Shown piece after piece: positions 12,490 to 62,634 of a stretch of 64,000 bases of DNA. This DNA is from an uncultured bacterium. Its GTDB lineage: Bacteria; Patescibacteriota; Gracilibacteria; Absconditabacterales; Absconditicoccaceae. How positions within the stretch are numbered: the first letter of the stretch is position 1; every line of letters starts with the position of its first letter. The stretch covers positions 62,001 to 126,000 of the forward strand of contig CAMVSQ010000001.1 of assembly GCA_947170225.1 (NCBI GenBank). The letters are read 5' to 3'. The notes under the pieces are model-generated. The model had not been told where the DNA came from, searched no databases, and worked only from the letters and a program-made list of their open reading frames with translations. The translations under genes were made by a program, and so were the position numbers.

Positions 12490-12519
12490 AAAATCTGGCT
12501 CATTCACCAGATTTTTTTT
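12490..12519. terminator. bidirectional hairpin terminator
   Basis: Stem AATCTGG / CCAGATT with an 8-base loop, then T8 on the plus strand; on the minus strand it ends in TTTTCTTTT. It serves folA (+) and the small gene at 12500 (-). The TGA that ends the minus-strand frame lies in the loop. Confidence 0.85.
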
Positions 12520-12802
12520 CAATGACTCCATATTCCCCATTATCCAGTTTTAAGGGGTAAATGGAAAGCAGTATAGCTGTTTTTTGGTCTTTATCTGCCT
12601 TCCTATACAGGAATCCATACCCGAAAGCAATTGACAAGCAGATTTTGCAATCGTCAAGATTGCATACGTTGAGTTCAATCCTCGATGAGACTTGTTGTCC
12701 TATCAACTCAGGCAAGGGAAATTCCCGATTACCTAAATCGATAATTAAGGTACTAGCATCAGGCATTGTAGCGTAAAAAGGAGGGATGTGGTTGTTTTCC
12801 AT
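12500..12802 (-). CDS. TGA-free small gene (cassette), unknown
   Basis: 100 residues from ATG 12802; unrecognised, soluble-looking. No TGA occurs inside the frame and all 7 glycines are GGN, unlike host neighbours. Under the standard code it ends in TGA inside the loop of its own terminator; under code 25 it would continue for 9 residues to TAA at 12476-12478. A GTG at 12829 could extend the N-terminus by 9 codons, but the ATG fits better with the promoter at 12839-12866. It diverges from the GtrA-like cassette at 12952. Confidence 0.75.
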   Translation of the reverse strand: MENNHIPPFYATMPDASTLIIDLGNREFPLPELIGQQVSSRIELNVCNLDDCKICLSIAFGYGFLYRKADKDQKTAILLSIYPLKLDNGEYGVIEKKSGE

Positions 12803-12838
12803 CTTTTTGATAATTTTAAGGTTCAACACTTAAATTCC

Positions 12839-12951: not shown

Positions 12952-13440
12952 ATGAAGAAATACTTATTATTTGTCTGGTACTCAGTCATTGGTACAATTG
13001 CTGATTGGACATTATTGATATTCCTATCATTAATAATAAAAGGCATTGCTCTTGTTACAATGATAGCAACTCTTAATTTTGATATGGAATATTTCAAAAT
13101 GTTCGTAAGGCACGGTTGTGCTGCCTCAAATGTAATCTCATATGCAATAGGAGTCGCAATAACATTTGTTTTAAGTGCTAAATATGCATTTAAATTAAAT
13201 GATAATATGGGAAGGCGCATACGAAACACGACAGTAATCCACATCGTTGGATTATTGGTACAAAGTGGATTATTCGCTATGTTAATCCATCATCGTGGCT
13301 ATGATGAGAATACTGCTAAAATCATTACAATTTGTGAAAATGCGGTACTCATGGGAGCTGGCAATATCTTTATTGTCTTCAGAAATTATAAAAAAGAAGG
13401 CAAAAGTACGAAATTACAAAAAAAAGTATCCGAAACTTGA
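12952..13440 (+). CDS. GtrA-like membrane protein, TGA-free cassette
   Basis: 162 residues with four predicted membrane segments and the GtrA-like pattern (YSVIGTIADW at the start, SYAIGVAITFVLSAKYAF in the middle, NAVLMGAGNIFIVFRNYKF-like end). GtrA proteins are linked to moving polyprenyl-linked sugars or to cell-surface polysaccharide. No in-frame TGA occurs before the final codon and 11 of 11 glycines are GGN. The natural end is TGA at 13438, inside the hairpin of its own terminator. Under code 25 the frame would run on for about 65 codons, antisense over the next gene. A second, TGA-using GtrA-like gene lies at 14244. Confidence 0.8.
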   Translation: MKKYLLFVWYSVIGTIADWTLLIFLSLIIKGIALVTMIATLNFDMEYFKMFVRHGCAASNVISYAIGVAITFVLSAKYAFKLNDNMGRRIRNTTVIHIVGLLVQSGLFAMLIHHRGYDENTAKIITICENAVLMGAGNIFIVFRNYKKEGKSTKLQKKVSET

Positions 13441-32614: not shown

Positions 32615-32785
32615 ATGGCAAATAGAATTGTAACAGAAGAAATGTTGAAAGAGTTGTTTCATGATTTCAAGGATGACGGCAAACGACATGTCGGATTGGT
32701 GTTTAATAATTGGAGGCAAAGACATGGCCTATCTGGCGTCTCTATCAAAGATGTCTCGTATTTGTTGAACGGTTTTAATTGATAA
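32615..32785 (+). CDS. TGA-free small protein (first gene of cassette)
   Basis: 55 residues (56 if the terminal TGA is read as Gly): MANRIVTEEMLKELFHDF start, basic middle with NNWRQRHGL. Unrecognised; it may be a small helical nucleic-acid- or protein-binding peptide. All 5 internal glycines are GGN. It ends TGA immediately followed by TAA, so it terminates cleanly in either code. The next gene's ATG is 4 bases later. Confidence 0.68.
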
Positions 32786-32789
32786 AGTT

Positions 32790-33341
32790 ATGGAACCTAC
32801 AAAAATTTTGGTTGCAACTACCAATAATGAACTGTTTAATGCTTTTAAACAAGCATTTATGAGATTTGATGTCCAGATGTGTCTGGTTTCCTCTTATTGT
32901 GAAGCTGTCGAACAATTACAAAATGGGTGTACTGATTTGCTGATTAGTGATTATTTTTTGGGGGCTGGTGCACAAAAAGATGTGGCTTTTGAGGCTCGCA
33001 ATTGGGAAGTTGATACAATTGAGCATGATTTAAAAATTGTTGGACTTTATAGAAATTCTCTTTTGTGGCTTCGAAATTTGATTTATGAAGCAGACAAAGA
33101 AAAGCTTGCTCCTCTTGGAAGAAGACTTGTAATTGAGGCTGACTTACTGCCAACAAGGAGTATTTTAATAACTCCTTATGATACGTTGTATAAAATTGAA
33201 TCAGAAGATGTGGCTCTATATTTCAGTTTGTACAGAAGTAATTTGTATTATCCTGAAAATGAGAGTTTTCAAGAGATGGCCAATAAAATTATGACACTTG
33301 TAATCAAAAATCAGTATTTGAAGATGAAAAGAATTTATTAA
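32790..33341 (+). CDS. receiver-like protein, TGA-free (second gene of cassette)
   Basis: 183 residues. The first half looks like a response-regulator receiver fold: KILVATTNNELFNAFKQAF, then DLLISDYFLG, where the Asp of the SDY motif could be the phospho-acceptor. I cannot confirm the other acidic-pocket residues. The second half is unrecognised. No in-frame TGA; glycines are GGN; TAA stop. It is co-transcribed with the 55-residue gene and followed by a strong terminator. A regulator or sensor role is inference. Confidence 0.7.
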   Translation: MEPTKILVATTNNELFNAFKQAFMRFDVQMCLVSSYCEAVEQLQNGCTDLLISDYFLGAGAQKDVAFEARNWEVDTIEHDLKIVGLYRNSLLWLRNLIYEADKEKLAPLGRRLVIEADLLPTRSILITPYDTLYKIESEDVALYFSLYRSNLYYPENESFQEMANKIMTLVIKNQYLKMKRIY

Positions 33342-40459: not shown

Positions 40460-41083
40460 ATGAATATGGAAACTCACCACAGAAAATGCCCAATTAAGGA
40501 GAGAAAGCAGAATTCTCTTTCTGAAAAAATGAACACATTAATGTACCGTTTCGGCAAAGATTCAAAGGGTACTTTAATTGGCTTAGAAATGAGTGATGTA
40601 ATTCTACTTCTTGGCCAAAAAGGAAAGATTTCGGAAAAAGATTATGAACTCGTATTCGATACTTTTCTCAGTCGTGCTAGCGTCCGTTCTCTTATCAAAT
40701 TTGCCGAGAAATATGGTAATGAAGACAAGAGAGATGAAGTCCTAAATAATATTTTCTCAAGAAAAAGCTTTGAAGATGGACGGCATGTCTACCTAAACGC
40801 AAAACGTAGAGAGAATAGGATTAAAGCAATAAAAATGATGAAGGACGCCTCATACAACTCTTTCATTTACATTCTGCACAAATCTCTTGAACACCATGAC
40901 CTCCTAATGAATGGATTATTAGACGGAACTGTGAAACAGGAAATCATTGATTGTCGCCAAAAATGGCAAACTATATATGGTTTCGAGAGAGAAATTGGCT
41001 GCGACTATCAGGATTCGAAATACAGAGTTGAGATACTCAAGAAACTTTTGGATCCGGATGCAAAGGGCATATTACTCAATTAA
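40460..41083 (+). CDS. TGA-free protein (cassette), unknown
   Basis: 207 residues, soluble, highly charged and helical, ending in TAA. I recognise no family. The N-terminus has His/Cys residues (THHRKC) in no known motif. It has no in-frame TGA and all 12 glycines are GGN; arginine includes CGT, CGC and CGG, and base composition is visibly less AT-rich than pyrG or the SLH gene beside it. It has its own promoter and terminator. The largest and cleanest of the cassette genes. Confidence 0.78.
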   Translation: MNMETHHRKCPIKERKQNSLSEKMNTLMYRFGKDSKGTLIGLEMSDVILLLGQKGKISEKDYELVFDTFLSRASVRSLIKFAEKYGNEDKRDEVLNNIFSRKSFEDGRHVYLNAKRRENRIKAIKMMKDASYNSFIYILHKSLEHHDLLMNGLLDGTVKQEIIDCRQKWQTIYGFEREIGCDYQDSKYRVEILKKLLDPDAKGILLN

Positions 41084-44024: not shown

Positions 44025-44140
44025 TATATTTATTAGTGATTGACAAAAATAAAAAAATATTGAAATAAGTAAAAAAAACAATAAAATGGGAAATGAAAAC
44101 AAAATTCAAACTACAAAAATCTTGAAAGGAGGTGTGAAAA

Positions 44141-44245
44141 ATGAGAAAATGCAATGCAAGAAAAAAAGCAGAAAGGAGTGCAAAAAGATCACTCAAATGG
44201 AAAAGCAGCAAAAAAAACAAAAAATTTAAAAGAAGAAAAAAATGA
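44141..44245 (+). CDS. 34-residue Lys/Arg-rich peptide, TGA-ended (cassette)
   Basis: The most canonical ribosome binding site in the window (AAAGGAGGTG) lies 5 bases before the ATG. The product is MRKCNARKKAERSAKRSLKW plus 14 more mostly basic residues, with no glycine. It could bind nucleic acid or the ribosome (compare tiny basic ribosomal proteins such as bTHX), but no homology is claimed. The frame ends TGA 13 bases before a terminator hairpin. If TGA is read as Gly, it continues for 42 further codons through the terminator to TAA at 44372-44374. Confidence 0.6.
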   Translation: MRKCNARKKAERSAKRSLKWKSSKKNKKFKRRKK

Positions 44246-44257
44246 GTAGTTTGTGAC

Positions 44258-44290
44258 AAAGCCATCCTAAAATTTGTAGGTGGCTTTTTT
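44258..44290 (+). terminator. terminator of the 44141 peptide gene
   Basis: AAGCCATCCTA / TAGGTGGCTT (one mismatch or bulge), T6. Confidence 0.8.
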
Positions 44291-44291
44291 C

Positions 44292-44319
44292 TTGATTTTG
44301 GATCTAGATTGATTATAAT
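44292..44319 (+). promoter_or_regulatory. promoter of the 44377 cassette
   Basis: TTGATT, 16 bases, TATAAT, immediately after the preceding terminator. Confidence 0.75.
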
Positions 44320-44331
44320 TGGTTTCAAGAT

Positions 44332-44350
44332 GTTTAGCAAAGTGCTAAAC
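44332..44350 (+). promoter_or_regulatory. palindrome in the 44377 leader
   Basis: GTTTAGCA-AAG-TGCTAAAC, 8-bp arms, 12 bases downstream of the -10 box. Could be an operator or an RNA hairpin. Confidence 0.5.
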
Positions 44351-44376
44351 GCAAAAAACCAAAGTTTTTTTTAATC

Positions 44377-44664
44377 ATGGCAAAAAAAATTATTATTGCT
44401 GGGACTATAAAAGTCCCTATGGAAATCGCGAATCTGGTACATCGCTGTGGTGATGATGTTCAACTCAAAATGATTCCAAATTATGAATTTCATAAAAAGG
44501 AAGTCTGCTATATCACCAAAGCGCTTTTGTGTGTTGAGGGTGATAATTATTTTATTACCCAACAAATGGGAACCAATACTTTGAGTATTGGCTACACAGA
44601 TAGCGAGCCAGACAAAGGGACTTGCAAAAAAATCAAAAAAATTGTTTCAGCAAAGCTTTGTTGA
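44377..44664 (+). CDS. TGA-free small protein, TGA-ended (cassette)
   Basis: 95 residues starting MAKKIIIAGTIKVPMEIANL. A compact mixed alpha/beta protein with cysteines at several positions (HRCGDD, KEVCY, KALLCVEGD, KGTCKK, AKLC). No family recognised. 6 of 6 glycines are GGN. The natural end is TGA at 44662, with a hairpin terminator 7 bases later. Under code 25 translation would run through the terminator for roughly 60 residues, into the start of the next gene. The strongest single example of a TGA acting as a designed stop in this window. Confidence 0.75.
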   Translation: MAKKIIIAGTIKVPMEIANLVHRCGDDVQLKMIPNYEFHKKEVCYITKALLCVEGDNYFITQQMGTNTLSIGYTDSEPDKGTCKKIKKIVSAKLC

Positions 44665-44671
44665 CAAAACT

Positions 44672-44698
44672 TAATCCTAGTTTTACTAGGATTTTTTT
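44672..44698 (+). terminator. terminator of the 44377 cassette
   Basis: AATCCTAG / CTAGGATT, loop TTTTA, T7. Confidence 0.88.
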
Positions 44699-44806
44699 GA
44701 AATCGGTGTTTTGACCTACGATATTTTATTTTACTTGCTTTTTGTGTCTTTTTGTGTAAAATATGGGTTAATAAATTTAATTTTGATTTTATTGTAAAAT
44801 TTTTAG

Positions 44807-62145: not shown

Positions 62146-62193
62146 ACTTTTCGCAAAAAAAATGTATTAAAACAAAAAAAAGGAGGAAACATT

Positions 62194-62634
62194 ATGAACG
62201 GCAATGTATTGGACTTGTTTATTGATGTACCAAATGCTGAAAATTTTAAAAGGATTCAGCAAAGTGCTTGGTTACTAGAGCGAGTATTTCAAAGAGACAA
62301 AGAAATTGCAAAAAAGTTTTTTGGCTTTGAAGATTGGTTTAAAGTAGCCAAAGATGCAAACGATCTGGATAGCGAGGAATCTCGTTTGTTGAAGTTTTAT
62401 TTTGAATCTTCAATCTCGTGCTTTTGTGATGCGGTAAAATATTTCCACTTTTTGGGTTATGATGAGAGAATCCTTTGGGTTCCCAAATTTATAGATCATG
62501 CCAATAGTGTTGCTGATTTGAAGTATATTTTGAATCATGTGGACAAAAAATATCGTAGTACAATTGTCTCAAAAATGAGGGAAATCGCAAAAACAGATGA
62601 AGAAAAAAAGATCGCTTTTTCGTATTTGATTTAA
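62194..62634 (+). CDS. TGA-free protein (cassette), unknown
   Basis: 146 residues, soluble, helical, with an aromatic-rich core (FFGFEDWFKVA, KYFHFLGYDERILWVPKF). Unrecognised. A perfect AGGAGG lies 8 bases before the ATG; most host genes here have no such site. No in-frame TGA; 3 of 3 glycines are GGN; TAA stop with a terminator 6 bases later. It lies between rpmE and the tRNA cluster. Confidence 0.76.
   Translation: MNGNVLDLFIDVPNAENFKRIQQSAWLLERVFQRDKEIAKKFFGFEDWFKVAKDANDLDSEESRLLKFYFESSISCFCDAVKYFHFLGYDERILWVPKFIDHANSVADLKYILNHVDKKYRSTIVSKMREIAKTDEEKKIAFSYLI

Follow-up and report, generated by a model that had tools for sequence, protein, structure and literature searches.

Several genes in this stretch of DNA end in TGA within, or a few nucleotides ahead of, a terminator hairpin, in a genome where TGA encodes glycine. 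Are these codons still stops for the cell, or do some of them derive from foreign genes, in which case the ribosomes here would read them as one more glycine? The question was addressed in a window of 64,000 nucleotides (C1:62001-126000, the whole stretch analysed), and genome-wide counts covered approximately 930 kb, taken as stretches plus the window, of the MAG to which it belongs (952,577 bases, 94.17% complete, estimated contamination 2.19%).

Genetic code and TGA-ended frames

The genome translates TGA as glycine. In 707 native genes TGA makes up 63% of the glycine codons (11,360 of 18,042), and a tRNA(UCA) of 74 nt has the same acceptor (GCGGGU/ACCCGCU) and discriminator as tRNA-Gly(UCC); the label 'SeC' given to it by ARAGORN was dropped, as both acceptor stem and length are of the glycine type. 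A single release factor gene was found, itself holding nine in-frame TGAs. It is of the RF1 type, with a PAT motif, and as a prfB candidate it was rejected, its match lying below the cut-off for that gene. No prfB (RF2) was found in the MAG; since the latter is only 94% complete, the absence is argued partly from the heavy use of TGA for glycine. Both tmRNA and SmpB are encoded. The original prediction had taken glycine as its premise, which holds, and had named prfB and a tRNA-Gly(UCA) as the genes to look for; only the second was found. With TGA as the main glycine codon, RF1 as the only release factor and a tRNA(UCA), UGA should be read through. These three features are common to the lineages using code 25 (UGA-to-glycine, in SR1/Absconditabacteria and Gracilibacteria), from which the present genome does not differ, being an ordinary member.

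Five frames of the window are concerned, and their ends, read directly in the sequence, are as first described. On the forward strand, a tiny basic gene of 34 aa before its TGA (44141-44245, TGA at 44243-44245) is followed after 12 nt by an intrinsic terminator (44258-44293, hairpin of -12.2 kcal/mol plus T-run), and a TGA-free ORF of 95 aa (44377-44664) is followed after 8 nt by another (44673-44700, -9.5 kcal/mol). Two further TGA-free ORFs have their final TGA inside their own hairpin: one on the reverse strand with 109 aa from GTG or 100 from ATG (12500-12829), and one on the forward strand with 162 aa (12952-13440, hairpin of -19.7 kcal/mol). The last, a TGA-free ORF of 55 aa on the forward strand (32615-32785), is closed by TGA (32615-32782) with TAA directly next, and the second ORF of the same cassette (32790-33341, forward) has 183 aa, no TGA, and a TAA followed by a terminator. 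If TGA is glycine, 44141, 44377, 12952, 12500 and 32615 would gain 43, 61, 72, 8 and 1 residues, respectively, before reaching TAA or TAG; the range of 9 to 65 codons given originally was roughly right, if inexact. The 43-residue frame of 44141 (44243-44374, forward) crosses the terminator.

Judged against the positions of native stops and hairpins, the placement of TGA next to terminators is more than chance. Among 680 native genes, a T-run hairpin begins 0-30 nt downstream of TAA or TAG in 85 of 112 cases, and lies upstream of the stop in only four of the 112; a second scan detected five hairpins within the final 300 nt of native frames, of which a single one (L188) is convincing as a terminator. 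Where a hairpin follows the TGA, the gap of 8-30 nt matches that between native TAA/TAG and hairpin. Since native hairpins mostly lie after TAA or TAG, reading on in 44141, 44377 and 12952 would give frames unlike the native ones, and their mRNAs, which would end at these hairpins, are predicted to lack a stop.

Standard-code cassettes

The loci 12500, 12952, 32615 and 44377 are best explained as cassettes in the standard code, their TGA being the donor's stop. Glycine is encoded by six GGN and no TGA in 44377, and by 11 GGN and no TGA in 12952; at 63% TGA usage, the chance of six glycines all being GGN is about 0.003 (0.37^6, calculated by hand), which makes a native origin unlikely. Outside native genes, 34 candidate ORFs of 60 aa or more were counted that have four or more GGN but lack TGA, a few fragments or beginnings of native genes included. 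Among the 23 TGA-free candidates with an adjacent terminator, 13 end in TAA, four in TAG and six in TGA, so that TGA stops do not appear to be selected against. L184:6512, L187:8401 and window 14511 were rejected as cassettes, being the starts of native TGA-bearing genes. The suggestion that recent cassettes are involved is thus backed by the lack of in-frame TGA, the 6-11 GGN of the larger ORFs, the lack of close relatives and the share of about a quarter of TGA stops; it applies to these four loci and fails for 44141.

As regards their contents, 12952 is a GtrA-type membrane protein (GtrA/DPMS domain PF04138, 33.1 bits against a cut-off of 26.1), for which no close relatives were found. Relatives of 44377 were found neither in 287 genomes of the phylum nor in genome_contigs, phages, plasmids and viral contigs, and no match would make 44377 or 44141 a phage or plasmid gene. 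Donor searches for 12952 and 32790 were empty, and no donor was identified for any cassette of the window. A donor type is suggested solely for a cassette elsewhere, a TGA-free gene of 349 aa with 36 GGN (L064:15423-16472, reverse strand) whose T9SS type A sorting domain, above both Pfam and NCBIfam cut-offs, is a hallmark of Bacteroidota and points to a donor in that group. Gene transfer into Patescibacteria, with Bacteroidota among the sources, has been reported (PMC12455944). Moreover, code-11-compatible phages of Gracilibacteria and Absconditabacteria are known (PMC10746230); they resemble the present case in carrying TGA-free genes in a host with TGA as glycine and in placing a backup stop after TGA, as in the TGA-TAA of 32615, but here the genes form small chromosomal cassettes, and after several of the TGA stops no second stop lies close by. 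Two further observations concern ORFs of this kind: a TGA-free ORF of 207 aa with a TAA end at window 40460-41083 is likely another cassette, and three ORFs without internal TGA in genome G317 (L204:15571-17700) have near-identical AAGGAGGAAAAATT leaders, the first ending in TGA.

The tiny gene and its Shine-Dalgarno start

The original prediction grouped 44141 with 44377. Both do end in TGA in the same way, but the kind of gene differs, 44141 having a Shine-Dalgarno (SD) start and relatives in the clade, and the two should be treated separately. The Lys/Arg-rich product of 44141 has relatives in seven genomes (G287, G317, G318, G321, G336, G342 and G301), and the gene is patchily distributed, being present in 8 of the 49 genomes of the family. 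Both flanking genes are kept in G317, G318 and G321, and one in G342, which indicates that the gene was inherited there and not newly acquired; in G287, the other genome of the genus, the relative adjoins ruvB. Directly 3' of this ruvB (L097:1990-2110) a long inverted repeat (CCTACCACGGGTGC...GCACCCGGGTGGTAGG) was observed. The product gave no match in Pfam or among ribosomal and PDB proteins, so that its identification as bS21 or another known protein of these sets was rejected; it lacks the Ribosomal_S21 domain, and the best S21-like ORF of the genome, divergent and SD-less, lies elsewhere (C10).

The SD (AAAGGAGGTG, 44125-44134, forward strand) is exceptional in this genome, where GGAG occurs at none of 648 native ATG starts, against 14-20 expected, and where the pattern AAAGGAGGN{3,9}ATGAGA has one occurrence, at 44141. 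Within the tiny family, AAAGGAGG is found 5-8 nt before the ATG in seven of the eight members, the exception being G301. The 16S rRNA reads ...GGGGATAGACCACCATCCTAAAC at its 3' end (L190:1-70, G000:C16), so that the CCTCC core of the anti-SD is interrupted (CACCATCC), a reading that rests on one short fragment at a contig edge to which Rfam gave no score; the tails of the relatives were not found in the genome stretches examined. Through one bulge, the SD of 44141 pairs with its own altered tail at -11.1 kcal/mol (-15.5 with a canonical tail), and only one of 647 native starts pairs equally well. In the accessible part of a report on SD-scarce organisms without CCUCC, two SR1 genomes among them (PMC10783764), the situation is similar in that native genes are SD-less and the 16S tail is altered (CACCATCC in the present genome); that part has no mention of a conserved SD-led tiny gene such as the one kept here. 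Code, lost SD use and 16S tail together agree with Absconditabacteria (SR1). A second SD-led ORF (AAAGGAGGAAACATT ATG) was noticed at window 62179-62634, directly upstream of a tRNA cluster, with 146 aa, no TGA, and a TAA followed by a strong terminator. Furthermore, a second SD-led mini-ORF, with an SD-like GAGGAG, overlaps the stop of the tiny gene in G317, G318 and G321 (L115, L117 and L119, at about 1600-1640 of the gene strand).

As for its end, the gene closes with TGA in the present genome (G000), G317 and G342, at residues 31-37, with TAA in G287, G318, G321 and G336, and with TAG in G301. In the zone of the TGA, the closest relatives of G317 (G318 and G321) have TAA, and G287, G336 and G301 have a GGN glycine at residues 33-36. 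The zone therefore aligns with stops and with glycine, and the sequence fits either reading; the translation machinery favours glycine, which is most probably the right one. Beyond a possible 'GV', the read-through tail shows no similarity to the relatives. The terminator lies ahead of any in-frame stop in G000 and G317 and is borderline in G342, and this is not so in the other five members; a hairpin falls inside the code-25 frame in three of eight members, more often than in native genes (four of 112; about 0.002, calculated by hand and ignoring relatedness), and this, like the TAA of G318 and G321, speaks against the glycine reading.

Weighing the explanations

That UGA still terminates where the gene is short and a terminator adjoins is highly improbable. 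The gaps from TGA to hairpin (8-30 nt) match the native ones from TAA or TAG, and the TAA of G318 and G321 stands where the tiny gene has TGA in G317, G342 and G000, yet a donor stop would yield identical gaps, the zone aligns with the GGN glycines of G287, G336 and G301 as well, and native genes are dense in TGA read as glycine. The original proposal that some TGA still terminates finds no support: no prfB was found, the RF1 is canonical, and none of the TGA stops is conserved. An even smaller chance attaches to a chimera of assembly or binning that placed foreign genes in the contig: the sequence is a MAG with an estimated contamination of 2.19%, but the cassettes lie one by one between TGA-rich native genes along a single 171-kb contig, and the same pattern recurs in G287, G301, G317 and G336.

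Two explanations bear on the role of 44141. Autoregulation that depends on how accessible the 16S tail is, as described for rpsU (bS21) in Bacteroidota (PMC9976891), is unlikely, if better founded than the foregoing. It would account for a rare SD in an SD-free genome and its strong pairing, and the two cases share an exceptional SD in an SD-ignoring lineage; the protein differs, however, 44141 matching no ribosomal protein, a bS21-like ORF without SD stands at C10, and the gene is missing from most relatives. A rescue factor akin to ArfA, BrfA or ArfT is very unlikely; it would come from a non-stop mRNA, receive the tmRNA tag whenever trans-translation works, and have to act with RF1. Size and charge fit, tmRNA and SmpB are encoded, ArfT, a protein of 40 aa, acts together with RF1 (PMC6299226), and the terminator of BrfA precedes its stop codon (PMC8012679), as it does in two of the eight members (G000 and G317). 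Against this, TAA or TAG closes the frame without TGA read-through in five members, no KGKGS-like motif is common to the family, no sequence relation to rescue factors was found, the distribution is patchy, arfT itself has no terminator before its stop, and, unlike the setting of ArfA and BrfA, no RF2 is found in the present genome.

The explanation we consider probable is that two kinds of gene are present: standard-code cassettes with a donor's TGA, and an older, SD-led tiny gene. The cassettes (12500, 12952, 32615-33341 and 44377) would have been acquired from other bacteria, terminators included; with UGA translated as glycine, their products would be 1 to 72 residues longer, and where the terminator comes ahead of the next TAA or TAG, we infer an mRNA without stop, which may be left to tmRNA/SmpB for tagging. 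44141 would be an older tiny basic gene of the clade with an SD start in an otherwise non-SD lineage, its TGA most probably also glycine and its mRNA in this species thus non-stop. The leading guess for its product, at low confidence, is a peptide that binds the ribosome or RNA and is synthesized according to how accessible the 16S tail is. A more far-reaching idea, and an unlikely one, is that the family keeps ancestral signals (a strong SD and an interchangeable TAA/TAG/TGA end) despite the lost anti-SD core and RF2, which might reflect a special state of the ribosome, a factor regulated by non-stop mRNA, or a gene written for another cell's ribosomes.

Recoding, lost SD use and standard-code genes in the clade are already known in kind. 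The new element is the SD-led tiny family, no description of such a conserved family in an SD-free lineage with an altered anti-SD having been found in the literature searched. Standard-code genes in a recoded genome reveal, in a countable way, the fate of a foreign UGA stop where RF2 is lacking, and the SD-led tiny gene is a clean system for asking whether an SD is still of use to ribosomes whose anti-SD is broken, and for what purpose.
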